27,817 nucleotides of DNA from a virus: the IMG/VR virus record IMGVR_UViG_3300035034_000354, positions 1-27,817 of that record. One strand, 5' to 3'. The number at the start of each line of letters is the position of its first letter. The stretch's first letter is position 1. Under the pieces are notes generated by a model. It made no database searches. It was not told where the DNA came from and worked only from the letters and a program-made list of their open reading frames with translations. Both the position numbers and the translations under genes were made by a program. Positions 1-23,075 of the stretch are shown here, piece after piece.

Positions 1-324
1 ACTTCTACTACACCACCACCCGAAACTACCCCACCACCTCCGGGAGGAAGCACTACGACAACCTGTATTCCATGCTACCCACCAGTCCCAACGACACCAT
101 CGAAACCACCCACAATAGAGCCTCCAACGACTATTCCGGGAAATGTGATAGGTATAACCACCGAACGACCTGATTTTATATCACCTCTAAGTGTAAGTAT
201 AGTCACATCAACGACACCAATAGCACAACCAACTACTAATACTACATCTACAGTAACACCAATTGTAACATCAAAACCATTCATTAAATGTGTGGATGAT
301 ATTTGCAAAAAACTAAACTTCTGA
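1..324 (+). CDS. Thr/Pro-rich mucin-like protein, copy 1 (5' end missing)
   Basis: Frame 1 is open from the window edge to a TGA at 322-324, so only the last 107 residues are present. The visible part is low-complexity Thr/Pro/Ser sequence with a CxxC (TCIPCYPP), then a Pro-rich linker, and it ends in a short Cys-containing tail, KCVDDICKKLNF. The next gene downstream ends in almost the same tail (PCFDNTCKKLNF) and shares a near-identical stretch (bases 1-56 here, 740-795 there), so the two are tandem paralogues 4 nt apart. Composition resembles an extended, heavily substituted mucin-like stalk. A virion surface or fibre-associated role is inference from this and from the glycosyltransferase two genes downstream. 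No enzymatic motif is visible. Confidence 0.75.
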   Translation, partial: TSTTPPPETTPPPPGGSTTTTCIPCYPPVPTTPSKPPTIEPPTTIPGNVIGITTERPDFISPLSVSIVTSTTPIAQPTTNTTSTVTPIVTSKPFIKCVDDICKKLNF

Positions 325-328
325 TAAT

Positions 329-1060
329 ATGTCTTGTTGCCCAAACATCACCACATATAATATTACCAATCTCGTCGTAGATGGTAACCCTGCTGCTGAC
401 ACTACAGTTACTGGGAGTTTGGATAGTGGAGATTTTACTGGTGTTTGGGGGGATTATAATGAATTGATTCATCTCTACTGGTATGACAATTCTTGGATTC
501 TGGATGTTGAAAGCGGCCCACTTATAGGCGAATCATATTCAATAAATGGTGTTAGTAGATGTGATCCAAGAGATGATTATTATGGAAATATTGTACCAGA
601 GATCTACGCAACTATAACTGGAGACGTATCTGAGGTATGTACTTCTACTACTACTACTACTACTTCTACTACACCTACCCCAACTACTACTTCTACTACT
701 ACTTCTACTTCTACTTCTACTACACCTACCCCAACTACTACTTCTACTACCCCACCACCCGAAACTACCCCACCACCTCCGGGAGGAAGCACTACCGACT
801 GCCCCTGCATGTGGCCGGTACCCACCACACCATCAGAACCACCCAAAATCCAACCACCAACCACAATATTATCAGAATTACCCCCAATAAGCACCCAAAA
901 ACCATTACCATTATTCCCCCTAACTGTTAATATCATCACAACCATTCCACCAACCACTAAACCACCACACACACCCAGCACGACATCACCACCAACCCCA
1001 GACATTGGTATGACTTTTAAACCATGCTTCGACAACACTTGCAAAAAGTTAAACTTTTGA
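329..1060 (+). CDS. Thr/Ser/Pro-rich mucin-like protein, copy 2
   Basis: 243 residues. Residues 1-104 form a compact-looking N-terminal domain with Cys at 3, 4, 78 and 104 and many aromatic residues. Residues 105 to about 150 are almost entirely Thr, Ser and Pro, encoded by a slippage-prone ACT/TCT codon array. A CPC motif follows near 158-160, then a Pro/Thr linker to about 228, and finally the tail PCFDNTCKKLNF, shared with the preceding gene. No signal peptide or catalytic motif is seen. The ATG at 329 lies 4 nt after the previous stop, and a glycosyltransferase starts 12 nt downstream, so all three are probably co-transcribed. The likely role is an O-glycosylated virion surface protein. 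Function is inferred, and I recognise no family. Confidence 0.8.
   Translation: MSCCPNITTYNITNLVVDGNPAADTTVTGSLDSGDFTGVWGDYNELIHLYWYDNSWILDVESGPLIGESYSINGVSRCDPRDDYYGNIVPEIYATITGDVSEVCTSTTTTTTSTTPTPTTTSTTTSTSTSTTPTPTTTSTTPPPETTPPPPGGSTTDCPCMWPVPTTPSEPPKIQPPTTILSELPPISTQKPLPLFPLTVNIITTIPPTTKPPHTPSTTSPPTPDIGMTFKPCFDNTCKKLNF
662..750 (+). repeat. Thr-codon array with a 38-nt direct repeat
   Basis: The segment 662-699 is repeated exactly at 713-750, a period of 51 nt (17 codons), so the repeat keeps the reading frame. It is embedded in runs of ACT and TCT codons. This is the DNA basis of the mucin-like Thr/Ser block and is a likely site of in-frame expansion or contraction. Confidence 0.9.
740..795 (+). 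repeat. Copy of the segment at bases 1-56 (paralogue repeat)
   Basis: Bases 740-795 match bases 1-56 at 55 of 56 positions by eye; the one difference is at the twelfth base. They encode the TTPPPPGGSTT segment in both tandem paralogues. The near-identity is much higher than that of the flanking coding sequence, which suggests recent duplication or gene conversion between copies. Confidence 0.9.
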
Positions 1061-1072
1061 TAATTATATTAT

Positions 1073-1903
1073 ATGAGAAAACTCACAATAGGGATGGCAA
1101 CACATGACGACTATGATGGTGTATTTTTTACACTACAAAGCATTAGAATGTTTCATAAAGAGGTTCTAGATGAAGTTGAATTCATAGTTATCGATAATAA
1201 TCCATCAAGTGTTCACGGTAAAGCTGTTCGGGAGCTTTTAGATAATATAAAAGAGCCTACACAATACCTACCATTTACGAATTATGAGTCTTCGACCATC
1301 AAAAATAAAGTTTTTGACCTTTCAGATACGCCATATGTCATGTGTATCGACTGTCACGTTCTATTAGAACCCGGATCTATTAGAAAACTAATAGATTACT
1401 ATGATTCTAGAAGTGATTGTGGGAATCTTCTACATGGACCATTGGTATATGATGATTTGGGAAATATAAGCACACACTTTGACCTATCTAAGTGGGGTTC
1501 CCACATGTGGGGTCAATGGGCTACCGATGATCGTGGTAAATTACCAGACAATCCCCCATTTGAAATTGAAGCACAAGGTATGGGTCTTTTCACCTGTAGA
1601 AAGGACTCATGGTTAGGTTTTAATAAACAGTTCAGAGGTTTTGGGGGAGAAGAGGGATACATTCATGAAAAATACCGAAAAATGGGTAGAAAAGTCATAT
1701 GTTTACCATTTTTAAGATGGCTACATAGGTTCAATCGTCCAAATGGTGCTAAATATTCCAATAAACTGGAAGATAGGTTTAGAAATTACTATATCGGGTT
1801 CCAAGAACTTGGATTGAACATTGAAAAACTCAAAGACGAGTTTAAGGGTGTTATTTCAGAACAATATATTCTAAAACTTAATGAGGAATTAAATATTACC
1901 TAA
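1073..1903 (+). CDS. GT-A glycosyltransferase with DxH motif, GT2/GT27-like
   Basis: 276 residues. The N-terminus (MRKLTIGMATHDDYDG, then FIVIDNNPS at 37-45) is the nucleotide-sugar-binding half of a GT-A fold. The metal-binding motif is D93-C-H95 in CIDCHVLLEPG, where most GT2 enzymes have DxD. GMGLFTCRKDSW (169-180) and GFGGEEGYIHEKYR (189-202) give the acceptor-side acidic motif, and W216-L-H218 could supply a third metal ligand. DxH plus GGE plus a later His is the layout known from polypeptide GalNAc-transferases (GT27), which act on Thr/Ser in mucins. The enzyme follows two mucin-like genes by 12 nt, so they are plausible acceptors; this is inference. It could instead build cell-wall or other glycans. 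Its 3' end overlaps the convergent gene by 15 nt. Confidence 0.8.
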   Translation: MRKLTIGMATHDDYDGVFFTLQSIRMFHKEVLDEVEFIVIDNNPSSVHGKAVRELLDNIKEPTQYLPFTNYESSTIKNKVFDLSDTPYVMCIDCHVLLEPGSIRKLIDYYDSRSDCGNLLHGPLVYDDLGNISTHFDLSKWGSHMWGQWATDDRGKLPDNPPFEIEAQGMGLFTCRKDSWLGFNKQFRGFGGEEGYIHEKYRKMGRKVICLPFLRWLHRFNRPNGAKYSNKLEDRFRNYYIGFQELGLNIEKLKDEFKGVISEQYILKLNEELNIT

Positions 1904-3077: not shown

Positions 3078-3575
3078 ATGAATAAATATGCAAAAACTTT
3101 CATTAAAGTCCTTAGAGAAGATGATGCTCTTGAGCGCAAAGCTATGGAACAGACCCTTGATGATGGTATCGATCCTATGGATTTTGATACCGATATGGAA
3201 ATGAGTCCAGAAGAAGCACAAGCTACTGATGACGTAGCAGATGCTATGTCTCGTAGAAACGAGCAAATCATAGGAGAGCTTCAATCATGGATCGATAGAG
3301 TTGACGAGTTCCTAAACTTCCTAAACTCCGAAGATCCAAACAGTGTTCAATCACGTTTGGCTGCTGCTGAACCTGATACTGTCATGGATAAGATGAAGCA
3401 ATCACAGCAAACAAAGATTAGTCGTGTTGCGTCTGACCTTGCAAGCTTGCATCAGAACTTCTTAGGGTTCATGGCGCAGACAAGTAATGCAAGATTTAAA
3501 TATGTACTCGCCCCGTTCGCATTTGGTATGAGTTTACTAAGCATGGCTGGACAGATCGGGTCATATTTCAGTTAA
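3078..3575 (+). CDS. Putative internal head protein with capsid-targeting-like N-terminus
   Basis: 165 residues from the ATG at 3078; a TTG at 3057 is also in frame but would place the late-promoter-like box inside the gene. The N-terminus MNKYAKTFIKVLREDD has the pattern of T4 capsid-targeting sequences (for example MKTYQEFIAE in internal proteins), followed by L-R-E, a candidate gp21 prohead-protease site. The rest is acidic and helical: a DDGIDPMDFDTDMEMS stretch near 30-45, a Gln/Ser-rich helical middle, and a hydrophobic C-terminus (YVLAPFAFGMSLLSMAG). A strong intrinsic terminator follows 28 nt after the stop, so this is probably a monocistronic late unit. Head location is inferred; no homologue is recognised. 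Confidence 0.6.
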   Translation: MNKYAKTFIKVLREDDALERKAMEQTLDDGIDPMDFDTDMEMSPEEAQATDDVADAMSRRNEQIIGELQSWIDRVDEFLNFLNSEDPNSVQSRLAAAEPDTVMDKMKQSQQTKISRVASDLASLHQNFLGFMAQTSNARFKYVLAPFAFGMSLLSMAGQIGSYFS

Positions 3576-12668: not shown

Positions 12669-12901
12669 TCAATATTATATCTATTTTTTCTAATTATCGT
12701 AACTAAACCCTGAATATCCTCTGGTAAATCTCTCATTGGTGTCATTAATGGATTTATTAGATCATGCAATTCCTTATTTGTAATTTCTCTATATTCTCGA
12801 CCATTAGACTCTTTCTTAGTTCTTAATAGTAATATTAAAATGTATTGTGTTAGGGCTATATGTTCAGCCAATTTGGTATCTTTGTCGTAATTATTGTCCA
12901 T
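12665..12901 (-). CDS. Small protein upstream of gp41, unknown
   Basis: 78 residues, MDNNYDKDTKLAEHIALTQY, with an aliphatic helix (ILILLLRTKK) and a charged C-terminal half (NPLMTPMRDLPEDIQGL). It overlaps gp41 by 4 nt downstream and the glycosyltransferase by 11 nt upstream, so it is clearly part of the operon. No family is recognised. Confidence 0.65.
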   Translation of the reverse strand: MDNNYDKDTKLAEHIALTQYILILLLRTKKESNGREYREITNKELHDLINPLMTPMRDLPEDIQGLVTIIRKNRYNIE

Positions 12902-13613
12902 ATCTCTTTAAAAAATAGTTTTCTCCGCTTTTCCACTCGTCTGTGAAGGATCTAAGACCCGGAGACTCATGTGTTATTAGAATATCACCGACACCAACCT
13001 TATATCTAGCTAGATATGCATCTAAACTAAAAATACAATCGTAAAAATGGAAGGCTGATGGGCATTTTTCATCAAATCTAACACCACTTTCCATCATTTT
13101 TCTCGATAGTGCCATAAAAACACCATCGATCATTATAACTCTATGTGGATATGCTCCAAAATTGGTTGATTGCTTGCTAATCTCCCAATCAGCACCCCCA
13201 TATCCCATTCTACCATCCTTCTCTTCTACCATATGGTTTACTTTGCCATGTAGATGACCACCCTCAAACCCACCACCCATCAAATGCCATAACGCAGGAC
13301 TCTTAATCTCTGCTTTGGAACATCCAGCAACACCGACAAGATCATATTCATCAAATAACTTCTCAAGTTTCGGGATAGGGTCTTCTTCTAAGATAACGTC
13401 ATCGTGAACTAGTATCAAACAGTCGGAATTATAAGTATTCAATGCCATTTCTATAGCCCTATTATAGACTACAGCCAGTGGTGATGTGTTACTTTCGAAA
13501 ATGTGCCAATCTGTATCGCAATCTTCCAATTTTTGACGTTCACCCCAAATAGTGGTCGTTCTCAAATCTAATTTTGTAGTTGCTGAACATATCAGGGGCT
13601 TTTTAATCTCCAT
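12891..13613 (-). CDS. GT-A glycosyltransferase, family 2-like (StrF type)
   Basis: 240 residues. The N-terminus MEIKKPLICSATTKLDLR is followed by NTSPLAVVYNRAIEMAL (42-58) and the metal-binding LVHDDVILEED (68-78). A later GVFMALSRKMMES and a HFYDCIFSLDAYLARYKVGVG region with a downstream His match GT2-like enzymes of the StrF/glycosyltransferase-domain type. Substrates are unknown; virion or host-surface glycans are the plausible targets. It is divergent from the 13664 gene with a very short intergenic region, and it heads the minus-strand block that contains gp41, so its promoter must overlap the neighbouring coding sequence. Confidence 0.8.
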   Translation of the reverse strand: MEIKKPLICSATTKLDLRTTTIWGERQKLEDCDTDWHIFESNTSPLAVVYNRAIEMALNTYNSDCLILVHDDVILEEDPIPKLEKLFDEYDLVGVAGCSKAEIKSPALWHLMGGGFEGGHLHGKVNHMVEEKDGRMGYGGADWEISKQSTNFGAYPHRVIMIDGVFMALSRKMMESGVRFDEKCPSAFHFYDCIFSLDAYLARYKVGVGDILITHESPGLRSFTDEWKSGENYFLKRYGQ

Positions 13614-15311: not shown

Positions 15312-15980
15312 ATGCAATCTTTTGAAGATTTTTACAAATCTCTAGTTTTAGAGATGGCAAGACCTAACACAGTTATTCCAAATATAATTGGCGATGCATT
15401 GTTTCATAGATATATTAGACTTTTAAATCAAGTCACTAAATGTTTAAAGTATGGAGTCGATGTCAATGGTAAACCACTATATGATAAAAATGGGATAGAA
15501 GCCGTAGGGTTGGATGATTCTGTTATCCAAGATAGAAAATTGAGATATTTTCTATTTATTTTAAATGGATTCTATCATACCCTCGACGTAAAAGATCCAA
15601 ACCTTGAATTAAATTTTAAAAAAGCAATTGTCAATTCACACGACCACTTTATTTACATTTTAAAGCTGAATAATCAGTGGAAAAACTCAACTACAACTAA
15701 ATTAACCACCGCTGTTGCTCTTTCAATTAAGGAGAATGAAAAATTTTTCACATCCCAAGATTTTCAAGATGCCCTATTAAATCCAACTATCTTATCTAAC
15801 TATTTAAATATTTTTAGAGTGAAAAATGGATTCACTTCCGAGAAAGCAGCTACCCAAAGAGAAAAACAATTTGGAACAGATGTTCATACCATCGATAATA
15901 TTATGTCTAAAACTAGAGATATGAGAAAACGAGAAAATTTAGATATTCGTGATGCTAAAAGGAGAAAAGTTAATCTTTAA
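15312..15980 (+). CDS. Putative internal head protein with EMARP N-terminus, short paralogue
   Basis: 222 residues, starting 1 nt after the previous stop (TAATATG). N-terminus MQSFEDFYKSLVLEMARP resembles T4 internal-protein targeting peptides (MKTYQEFIAE) and shares EMARP with the upstream paralogue. The shared core covers about residues 12-100, including VDVNGKPLYDKNGIEAVGL and DRKLRYFLF. The C-terminus is basic (MRKRENLDIRDAKRRKVNL), as expected for a protein packaged with DNA. The 3' end overlaps the convergent methyltransferase by 11 nt. The paralogy is directly visible; the head location is inferred. Confidence 0.65.
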   Translation: MQSFEDFYKSLVLEMARPNTVIPNIIGDALFHRYIRLLNQVTKCLKYGVDVNGKPLYDKNGIEAVGLDDSVIQDRKLRYFLFILNGFYHTLDVKDPNLELNFKKAIVNSHDHFIYILKLNNQWKNSTTTKLTTAVALSIKENEKFFTSQDFQDALLNPTILSNYLNIFRVKNGFTSEKAATQREKQFGTDVHTIDNIMSKTRDMRKRENLDIRDAKRRKVNL

Positions 15981-16719
15981 TATTGTTTAGAACCCTCTCT
16001 TTACCAAGCTCGTAGTATACTTCGTCCTTCTCAATACCAATAAACTTTCTATTGGTGTTTTTACAAGCTACGCCACAAGATGCCGATCCATAACACACAT
16101 CTAAAACAGTATCACCCACTTTAGTATACGTTTTAACTAGATATTCCATCAGTGTAACTGGTTTTTGGGTTGGGTGGTATCTAATATTACCCCGATTAGC
16201 CTCAAAACATCCAGTAATGATGCTGGTTGGGTTTTTCTCAGTGTATGTGAATACTTTTGAGGCATTATCCTTATACTCACCAGTTCCCCCCTTACTATTT
16301 TTAGTAATATTGTAGCTTTTCACTACTTTATCTCTGGGAACCATTATAGGATAATGGTTATGCTTATAATTTTTGGAAAAAACAACAATATTCTCATGTT
16401 TTCTCATGGGTTGTTGTTTAGCTCTATGCATACCCTTTGGGATTTGCTTATCCCAAATCCATTCATACCTGAACCAGTCCCGATTTGAGTTGACTAGATC
16501 AGATGTGAAGGGTTGTTGTCCGGTTAGAACAATAACTCCATCATCCTTAATAACACGCTCCATTTCAGGCCAAAGCTTCGACAGATCTATATTTTTATCC
16601 CAATCAAAACGGTAATTTGTATCATAGGGTAGATCTGAAATAATACAATCAACGGAACTGTCTAGAAGTTTTGGTAATTCTTCTAGACAATCACCATTAA
16701 TGAATGTGAAATCAGACAT
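15970..16719 (-). CDS. DNA methyltransferase, beta-class N6-adenine/N4-cytosine type
   Basis: 249 residues. Motif IV DLPY (29-32) comes before the AdoMet-binding motif I LDVCYGSASCG (206-216), followed by IGIEKDEVYYELG. This order defines the beta class. The segment HPTQKPVTLMEYLVKTY (182-198) is the usual motif X region just before motif I, and a central variable region (about 95-180) would hold target recognition. No restriction enzyme gene is adjacent, so it is probably an orphan methylase that protects or marks phage DNA. Whether the base is adenine or cytosine cannot be told from DLPY alone. It starts 1 nt after uvsX ends, in the same operon. Confidence 0.9.
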   Translation of the reverse strand: MSDFTFINGDCLEELPKLLDSSVDCIISDLPYDTNYRFDWDKNIDLSKLWPEMERVIKDDGVIVLTGQQPFTSDLVNSNRDWFRYEWIWDKQIPKGMHRAKQQPMRKHENIVVFSKNYKHNHYPIMVPRDKVVKSYNITKNSKGGTGEYKDNASKVFTYTEKNPTSIITGCFEANRGNIRYHPTQKPVTLMEYLVKTYTKVGDTVLDVCYGSASCGVACKNTNRKFIGIEKDEVYYELGKERVLNNIKD

Positions 16720-21857: not shown

Positions 21858-23075
21858 TCAATTCCATTTTTTGAGGTATTGTCTCTTGGGATCACCATAT
21901 GGTGTGTCCAGAAGCTCAAGAAAGCACCCAATATTCTGAGGAAGCTCTAGAATCCTACTCAAACCAACCTTACGAAGCTCTGGAACCAGACTGTAATACT
22001 TAGAACGTCTCTTCCAATTCAGAAGTAGATCGATCTTTTCTTCCAACTCTGCCGCATCTTTAAATTTCAAGAAATCTGGTGCGCCCTCATATGTAACCAT
22101 ATCCTGACATAGACAAGGAATACCAAGTTGTGCAGCTTCAATAAATTTAATGTCTGATTTAGATCTATTAAATGCATTATCTTGTAGAGGGGCGATGAAT
22201 AGTTGTGCATTTAGAGATGCGATGAACGTTGGATATTCCAAAAGGTTCTTCCAAGGGTGAAACTCAATCTCCCTAGAAACAACATACTGTTTTAGGGGTG
22301 GTGGATACGCTCCAATAAATACGAATTGATACTTATGTCTATTATCAATGATGAACTTAAGGACATGTGTAAAATCGTCCTGTTGTCCATTCTGATTCTT
22401 CATATCAAAGTGCGCTCCAGACCCAGCATATACAATCCTAGGCTTCTTTTTATTTTTATCATACTCTGATATGATTTTTTTGTAATCATATTGATATCCG
22501 ATCCAAGAATATGGCATGAAGTTTGGAACGACTGTTATTTTTTTCTGATCTGTCTTCTCAATATACAGATCCCTCATATACTTACAGGTAACACTAACCT
22601 CATCGGCCATATTGATCATATCAATACAGTTTTGTCTAATCTCATCAGAATCGAATCCGTGTTTTGATGCATTATAATCTGGAATCTCTTCTCGAAATAC
22701 CACATCATCGACTTCGTAGATGATTCTAAACCCACAATCTTTCTGAATTGACTTCAAGAACATTAGAAAGTCTTTTTGATGCCCTGCTGCCTGTCTCTGA
22801 ACGGTGATCGTGTTAATTCCCATGTAGAAATTCTTCTCTCCAATCATTTTAGTAAACGTTGCAGAGTCTCCATGTCCTGTCATGTTGATATAATTCTCAA
22901 CAAAACCTCTACGATATGCAAAGCAACCATCTCTTCCGGCTGCATAGTTCAGATAACGCTTAGTTGTGTCGGGAGAATCCCCACCTTCTTCGGGGGTTGT
23001 GGTAGTTCTTTTCGAAAATGGATTGGATTTTACAAATGGACTTACATGGGGATTTACAAATGGACGAACGATCAT
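21858..23075 (-). CDS. GT-B glycosyltransferase, GT4-like
   Basis: 405 residues. The N-terminal half has IIYEVDDVVFREEIPDY (118-134) and SVTCKYMRDLY. The C-terminal Rossmann domain has PRIVYAGSGAHFDMKN (212-227), FVFIGAYPP, and the nucleotide-sugar-binding NRSKSDIKFIEAAQLG (303-318) with E313. This is the GT4/glycosyl-transferase-1 pattern. The first 40 residues are Pro/Thr-rich and probably disordered (PFVNPHVSPFVKSNPF). In T4, a GT-B enzyme of similar size (alpha-glucosyltransferase, about 400 residues) that modifies phage DNA lies near gp47 and gp55, so DNA glycosylation is one possibility. Glycan or virion modification is the other. Confidence 0.85.
   Translation of the reverse strand: MIVRPFVNPHVSPFVKSNPFSKRTTTTPEEGGDSPDTTKRYLNYAAGRDGCFAYRRGFVENYINMTGHGDSATFTKMIGEKNFYMGINTITVQRQAAGHQKDFLMFLKSIQKDCGFRIIYEVDDVVFREEIPDYNASKHGFDSDEIRQNCIDMINMADEVSVTCKYMRDLYIEKTDQKKITVVPNFMPYSWIGYQYDYKKIISEYDKNKKKPRIVYAGSGAHFDMKNQNGQQDDFTHVLKFIIDNRHKYQFVFIGAYPPPLKQYVVSREIEFHPWKNLLEYPTFIASLNAQLFIAPLQDNAFNRSKSDIKFIEAAQLGIPCLCQDMVTYEGAPDFLKFKDAAELEEKIDLLLNWKRRSKYYSLVPELRKVGLSRILELPQNIGCFLELLDTPYGDPKRQYLKKWN

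Follow-up and report, generated by a model that had tools for sequence, protein, structure and literature searches.

The glycosyltransferase encoded near the start of this virus DNA probably O-glycosylates the phage's own Thr-rich tail proteins during infection, giving them mucin-like stalks. This reading draws on sequence comparison and modelling; the gene architecture, the predicted fold of the enzyme, the invariant residues of its DxH, GGEE and His motifs, its adjacency to Thr-rich genes and its co-occurrence with them were all obtained by computation. The whole stretch analysed (the window) is a virus record of 27.8 kb (27,817 nucleotides). T4-type replication genes were read from its open reading frames (ORFs), and its DNA polymerase is about 30% identical to those of cultured phages, eg Synechococcus and Pelagibacter phages. 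An ORF at 15970-16719 (-) resembles by eye a DNA methyltransferase, with the motif DLPYDTNYRF. Among the INPHARED phages no close annotated relative was found when the window glycosyltransferase, a clade-2 glycosyltransferase or a bacterial glycosyltransferase was used as the query. The features on which the argument depends are as follows.

1..324 (+): Thr/Pro/Ser-rich protein 1 (ORF1), 107 amino acids seen, 5' end cut by the window edge
286..321 (+): C-terminal tag of protein 1, KCVDDICKKLNF, matching C.{1,6}C..L.[FY]$
329..1060 (+): Thr/Ser/Pro-rich protein 2 (ORF2), 243 amino acids, putative glycosylation substrate
641..796 (+): part of protein 2 densest in Thr/Ser/Pro, TSTTTTTTSTTPTPTTT...GGSTT; as many as 26 of 40 residues are Thr
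1022..1057 (+): C-terminal tag of protein 2, PCFDNTCKKLNF, same tag pattern
1073..1903 (+): DxH GT-A glycosyltransferase of GT27-like predicted fold, putative polypeptide O-glycosyltransferase, 276 amino acids (PF00535, AlphaFold2 model, fold matches)
1349..1357 (+): metal motif D93-C-H95 (DxH), whose D and H are shared by all 35 phage and bacterial relatives compared
1637..1654 (+): GFGGEE (residues 189-194), counterpart of the GT27 WGGEN loop in a weak profile alignment; E193 and E194 invariant in the same 35
1724..1726 (+): H218, putative third metal ligand (C-His), invariant in the same 35

The Thr-rich proteins and their C-terminal tag

Two tandem Thr/Ser/Pro-rich ORFs, followed after 12 nt by a glycosyltransferase gene, had been described in the sequence-only reading, and these coordinates and spacings are correct. 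ORF1 contains 24% Thr, 8% Ser and 21% Pro, and ORF2 23%, 9% and 16%, respectively; the glycosyltransferase contains only 4% Thr. A Thr-rich test applied to the window, requiring at least 60% T/S/P and at least 14 Thr in 40 amino acids, was passed by one of the 102 stop-free frames of 60 amino acids or more, namely ORF2. The truncated ORF1, in which no stretch of 40 residues has more than 12 Thr, fell below the cut. Each ORF draws on all four Thr codons, with ACT dominant in ORF2, and therefore the Thr tracts are not one simple DNA repeat. Protein 2 comprises an N-terminal part of about 104 amino acids that contains Cys, the Thr tract, a Cys pair, a Pro/Thr module and the C-terminal tag. Its architecture is resembled by proteins of the IMG/VR loci, and the C-terminal module and tag of protein 1 are common to other tagged proteins. 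No Pfam or PHROG family matched protein 2 at a useful E-value, and PHROGs gave nothing useful for the glycosyltransferase or its Thr-rich partners.

Both ORFs end in the same tag, ..C-x4-C-K-K-L-N-F, and both have a second Cys pair in the middle of the protein (CIPC in ORF1, CPC in ORF2), features that were absent from the sequence-only reading. Across the viral loci the tag consensus is C-x(1-9)-C-xx-L-x-[F/Y]. Of 3296 frames in the first 28 sequences, 25 matched the pattern C.{1,6}C..L.[FY]$, each lying at the glycosyltransferase or in tandem just upstream. A role for the tag as a signal recognised by the glycosyltransferase is weakened by record G031, which has two tagged proteins (47508-51317, ie L396 7508-11317, and 21929-23128) and no detected glycosyltransferase. 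One of the two adjoins genes that were read as baseplate genes and that gave no Pfam match. Because tagged proteins occur in G031 without the enzyme, we infer that the tag is a docking or assembly signal of the virion, independent of glycosylation, rather than a signal for the glycosyltransferase.

Motifs and predicted fold of the glycosyltransferase

The sole Pfam family of the enzyme is PF00535 (E 4.5e-5, 23.9 bits against a curated cut-off of 23.3). Two alignments were used, one of 22 phage glycosyltransferases (A1) and one of 35 phage and bacterial relatives (A2), and all 35 members of A2 matched PF00535 at E ≤ 0.01. D93-C-H95, GFGGEE and a later His, on which the sequence-only reading had relied, are present in the sequence, the His being H218. 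Invariant across the 35 relatives are D93, H95, E193, E194, H218, R219, F220 and R222; residue 94 is variable, with S and C the most frequent, and about 88% have G at residue 192. Set against WGGEN in the same weak profile alignment, the loop GFG[GA]EE keeps GGE, with Trp changed to Phe and Asn to Glu. A profile of the C-terminal half had GalNAc-T7 as its best PDB match, in a register that pairs GGEE with GGEN and H218 with GH, at a weak E of 0.22. No significant sequence homology to GT27 was found, the best profile matches to GalNAc-T7 having E values of 0.18 and 0.22, and a PDB sequence search with the single protein returned only noise. Pfam gave no match to a ricin-type lectin domain; the 276 amino acids make up a catalytic domain only. 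DxH in place of DxD has been noted for GT27 and GT60, both of them polypeptide Ser/Thr glycosyltransferases, and in GT27 the metal is also bound by the C-terminal His (PMC7185993). Toxoplasma GalNAc-T3 also has DxH (PMC11074326).

The AlphaFold2 model, made from A1, had a pLDDT of 86.8 and a pTM of 0.87. The best 50 matches of a Foldseek search of the PDB were all GT27 ppGalNAc-transferases, the best with an E of 5e-14. By VIA-align, 29 GT27 entries gave Z scores of 20.1-23.2, with an rmsd of about 2.9 Å over about 255 of the 276 residues, followed by RmlT (19.9, rmsd 5.3), K4CP (19.4), WrtF (18.8) and B4GALNT1 (18.4). The margin of GT27 over the others is real, not large, because all the matches are GT-A folds. 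The expectation of the sequence-only reading that the structure would group with GT27 rather than with cell-wall GT2 enzymes agrees with the model, which is closest to the ppGalNAc-transferases, with the teichoic-acid and polymer GT2 enzymes RmlT and K4CP close behind. On predicted fold and motif the enzyme is GT27-like; it is not named GT27 because its sequence places it only in PF00535, short of formal GT27 membership.

The alpha- and beta-glucosyltransferases of T-even phages are GT-B folds, and a DNA-modifying role for the window enzyme, a GT-A fold, is disfavoured on that ground. Membership of GT60 has no support from Pfam: PF11397, which we take to be the Pfam model of GT60, was matched by no member of A1 at E ≤ 0.1 and by no member of A2 at E ≤ 0.01. 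Nor was there a GT60 structure among the fold matches. What the enzyme has in common with GT60, the polypeptide alpha-GlcNAc-transferases of protists and some prokaryotes, is the DxH and, putatively, Ser/Thr polypeptide acceptors (PMC7185993).

Association with Thr-rich proteins in viruses and bacteria

Twenty-seven relatives were found at first in IMG/VR; a broader profile gave 562 viral loci, of which 80 were kept. Clustering of the viral glycosyltransferases at 95% identity left 58 distinct enzymes, for 55 of which the upstream DNA was long enough to judge. In 44 of these 55 the enzyme is directly preceded by a gene for a Thr-rich and/or tagged protein, usually across a gap of 10-18 nt, and a Thr-rich or tagged protein lies elsewhere in the locus in six. 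Five have none in the locus (L023, L024, L025, L194 and L203). In L023-L025 the glycosyltransferase sits among replication genes with no Thr-rich neighbour; the record of L024 (G010) holds exactly one Thr-rich protein, about 58 kb from the enzyme. In G020, L194 and L203 the glycosyltransferase is present and no Thr-rich protein was found. Among loci of the first group that have upstream sequence, the gene 10-13 nt before the glycosyltransferase ends in the tag or a near-tag, and nearly all such genes are Thr-rich. A second group (glycosyltransferase identity 58-62%) has giant partners of 757-2062 amino acids, found in L175-L200, that end in a tag of the same type and contain a Thr-rich tract. 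In L146, L179, L189 and L191 the neighbours are Thr-rich and have no tag. In L120 (5588-6878) the glycosyltransferase is inverted, tail-to-tail and overlapping with its Thr-rich partner, whose C-terminus is CVVWSGPLNF and not the usual tag.

Loci were also fetched by a neutral marker, an unrelated gene about 2 kb off (window 3078-3575), and nearly all of them carry both the glycosyltransferase and a Thr-rich gene; L145, from this set, has neither. In four records of 155-212 kb that have the enzyme, each with 1000-2000 frames, Thr-rich or tagged frames were found only beside the glycosyltransferase or within about 6 kb of it. Relatives without the enzyme were picked via UvsX and the lectin-like gene; searches from the lectin-like protein of L145 and a tagged protein of G031 yielded few loci. 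In whole records a Thr-rich protein was present in 6 of 7 with the glycosyltransferase and in 0 of 12 without it (Fisher p 2.6e-4), and runs of eight Thr codons in 20 of 28 and 2 of 14, respectively (p 5.8e-4), p-values that are only guides and overstate independence, because the records are related and incomplete. An 11-Thr run shared by G024 (37212) and G025 (16426), one protein in records that lack this glycosyltransferase family, is a partial counterexample. Proteins in the same place could be compared directly. With the glycosyltransferase, L146 has a long poly-Thr tract in a lectin-like protein and L147 a tract of 15 Thr; L145, without it, has none. G031, also without it, has in the same place a tagged beta-helix protein in which the tag is kept and a Glu/Pro/Asp-rich spacer replaces Thr, and its gene order (RRGT/Mtd_N-like, lectin-like, tagged protein, marker gene) is that of loci with the enzyme.

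The Thr-rich genes end the host-recognition cassette, with the glycosyltransferase last, so that the enzyme adjoins virion structural genes. Upstream in relatives are a Gp10 C-terminal (baseplate) domain (Gp10_C, 5e-19), two proteins with an Mtd_N (major tropism determinant N-terminal) match just below the Pfam cut-off, and a protein that in its model (pLDDT 70) is similar to legume-type lectins (Z about 14). The last, L007 6756-7580 and its homologues (A8), is a conserved protein of the cassette with a predicted legume-lectin-like jelly roll, and it might bind a glycan, even the O-glycan proposed here. Two further glycosyltransferase-like genes lie in the window, at 12891-13613 (-) with PF13712 and at 21858-23075 (-) with a PF13692-like match and phrog_7162; their products could extend or cap glycans.

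At least 105 relatives of the glycosyltransferase were found in GTDB genomes, and 80 were kept, 41-54% identical. Thr-rich ORFs numbered 37 within 3.5 kb of the bacterial enzyme and three farther off, in about equal amounts of DNA (p 6e-9). They are spread across the bacterial glycosyltransferase tree and many phyla, and more than half of the bacterial loci have no Thr-rich neighbour within 3.5 kb. Many of the partners are small, with a Tat-like signal, W-x-K-P, PAHA and then a Thr-rich end (examples among the GTDB loci L029-L108 are L083 6657-10304 from Bradyrhizobium, L084 5657-9320 and L088 1467-4935). This pattern was found in 31 loci, one of them spurious, always within 3 kb of the glycosyltransferase; reversed sequence gave five matches. 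The neighbours or fused domains of the bacterial enzymes include PqqD, HprK_rel_A and NTP_transf_5, and GT25-like domains are also carried by bacterial relatives. The set of glycosyltransferase, leader-bearing Thr-rich protein, PqqD (RRE), HprK_rel_A and NTP_transf_5 is a candidate RRE-guided system for O-glycosylation of Thr. A PqqD-like start on the Thr-rich protein itself was a clear Pfam match in L038 (9593-10486) and a weak one in L105 (6810-7694) and L058 (1787-2719); such proteins may possibly combine RRE and acceptor in one chain. RRE-guided peptide systems with an HprK-like kinase and an NTP transferase are known as paeninodin/lpp-type RiPPs (PMC13381572), WxxP agrees with one of the recognition classes described for RREs, and fusions of RREs to PF00535 glycosyltransferases have been noted (PMC12710340). 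With PqqD, WxxP and Thr-rich proteins as the bacterial setting, a Thr acceptor in a peptide or protein becomes the natural reading for the whole glycosyltransferase family.

Proposed mechanism, rival readings and significance

The three genes would form the end of the baseplate/tail-fibre (receptor-binding) cassette of an uncultured T4-superfamily phage. Both Thr/Ser/Pro-rich proteins would be tail components of the virion, each made up of an N-terminal part that varies, a stalk resembling mucin and, at the C-terminus, the conserved Cys tag, here taken to serve in docking or assembly. With its GT27-like fold, the metal-dependent DxH GT-A enzyme would glycosylate clustered Thr/Ser in the infected cell, and the virion would end up with densely O-glycosylated stalks. 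Catalysis, Thr as the acceptor, location in the virion and the role of the tag are what we infer. The link of enzyme and substrate, offered in the sequence-only reading as an inference, now has comparative support in the conserved adjacency, the co-occurrence in whole records and the recurrence in bacteria.

The main rival is that the glycosyltransferase modifies another target, such as a host surface polysaccharide, teichoic acid or a glycan made by the phage's other glycosyltransferases, and shares with the Thr-rich genes only the tail-fibre/host-recognition cassette. Surface-modifying glycosyltransferases are common in phages, PF00535 is the only family match, RmlT and K4CP score close behind GT27, some of the viral enzymes lie away from Thr-rich genes, and two more glycosyltransferase-like genes are in the window. 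We nevertheless consider this rival unlikely, given that the partner is kept despite a changing neighbourhood (the inverted L120, the tagless L146, L179 and L191, the giant partners of L175-L200 and the unrelated bacterial operons) and that Thr-rich proteins are missing from records without the enzyme, including two that do have the tail cassette (L145 and G031). It is very unlikely that the Thr tracts are low-complexity linkers, arising by repeat slippage in variable fibre genes, and that co-occurrence with the glycosyltransferase reflects phylogenetic inertia. The Thr codons are mixed, T/S/P composition is conserved despite divergence in sequence, the pairing of tract and enzyme recurs across the bacterial glycosyltransferase tree in many phyla, and relatives without the enzyme have no tract, including the protein in the same place; these points are set against the proneness of simple ACT/ACA repeats to slippage, the rapid change of tract length and sequence, and the close relatedness of many loci, which the p-values disregard.

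The enzyme might also, instead of adding the first sugar, extend or cap a glycan that a different enzyme has placed on the Thr-rich proteins. The other glycosyltransferase genes, at 12891-13613 and 21858-23075 in the window and beside the enzyme in L147, would fit such a division of labour, as would the GT25-like domains in bacterial relatives. Against this, the window family is the one conserved partner adjoining the Thr-rich gene in most loci, and its nearest solved folds are initiating polypeptide glycosyltransferases; we regard it as quite improbable, a judgement that overlaps with our confidence in glycosylation of the Thr-rich proteins by the phage enzyme, because extension or capping is a sub-case of it.

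The O-glycosylation of clustered Thr/Ser that GT27 enzymes carry out is generally presented as particular to eukaryotes. The phage enzyme resembles GT27, which carries out mucin-type O-glycosylation in animals and Apicomplexa, in its predicted GT-A fold, its DxH and C-His, the GGE of its loop as placed by the weak profile alignment, and its pairing here with Thr/Ser/Pro-rich, mucin-like putative acceptors. It differs in having no significant sequence match, GGEE instead of GGEN, no ricin-type lectin domain and no Golgi anchor, and in its phage or cytoplasmic bacterial setting. O-glycosylation of mycobacteriophage virions is already known (Freeman 2023, as cited in PMC11652166 and PMC12619734), and there too the proposed targets of a phage-encoded glycosyltransferase are structural proteins of the same phage. 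As those citing papers present it, the sites modified in mycobacteriophages are at the C-termini of capsid and tail-tube subunits, whereas a dedicated Thr-rich, mucin-like tail protein is proposed here, with a glycosyltransferase that is DxH/GT27-like. Like RRE (PqqD) systems, the bacterial relatives have PqqD, HprK_rel_A and NTP_transf_5 with short WxxP-bearing precursors; unlike them, the phage locus has no recognised PqqD, leader or kinase gene beside the glycosyltransferase, and the bacterial precursors are Thr-rich with Tat-like signals, with no lasso cyclase gene among the neighbours examined. Searches of largely open-access literature turned up no GT27-like enzyme native to bacteria or phages that has Thr-rich partners, and, as far as the literature searched goes, the pairing of a dedicated mucin-like tail protein with a GT27-like enzyme in a phage is undescribed.

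There may, as a tentative proposal with somewhat less than an even chance, be a class of mucin-type O-glycosylation across prokaryotes and phages, in which one DxH glycosyltransferase family, structurally akin to GT27, acts on dedicated Thr-rich acceptors, Tat-exported and RRE-guided with a WxxP leader and PqqD in bacteria, and tagged tail proteins in T4-like phages. If true, mucin-type initiation would occur outside the eukaryotes, including a phage branch that builds mucin-like tails, and GT27-type chemistry would occur in the bacterial cytoplasm. Human GalNAc-T2 is currently used to make mucin-like glycoproteins in E. coli (PMC13345888), and the family would then provide soluble enzymes for such production. 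The conserved C-terminal Cys tag, present in phages with and without the glycosyltransferase, offers a testable signal of virion assembly. For the phage itself, glycosylation could provide an extended protease-resistant stalk, shielding or adhesion, and the surface chemistry of the virion would possibly govern its stability, its adhesion to the host and its shielding.
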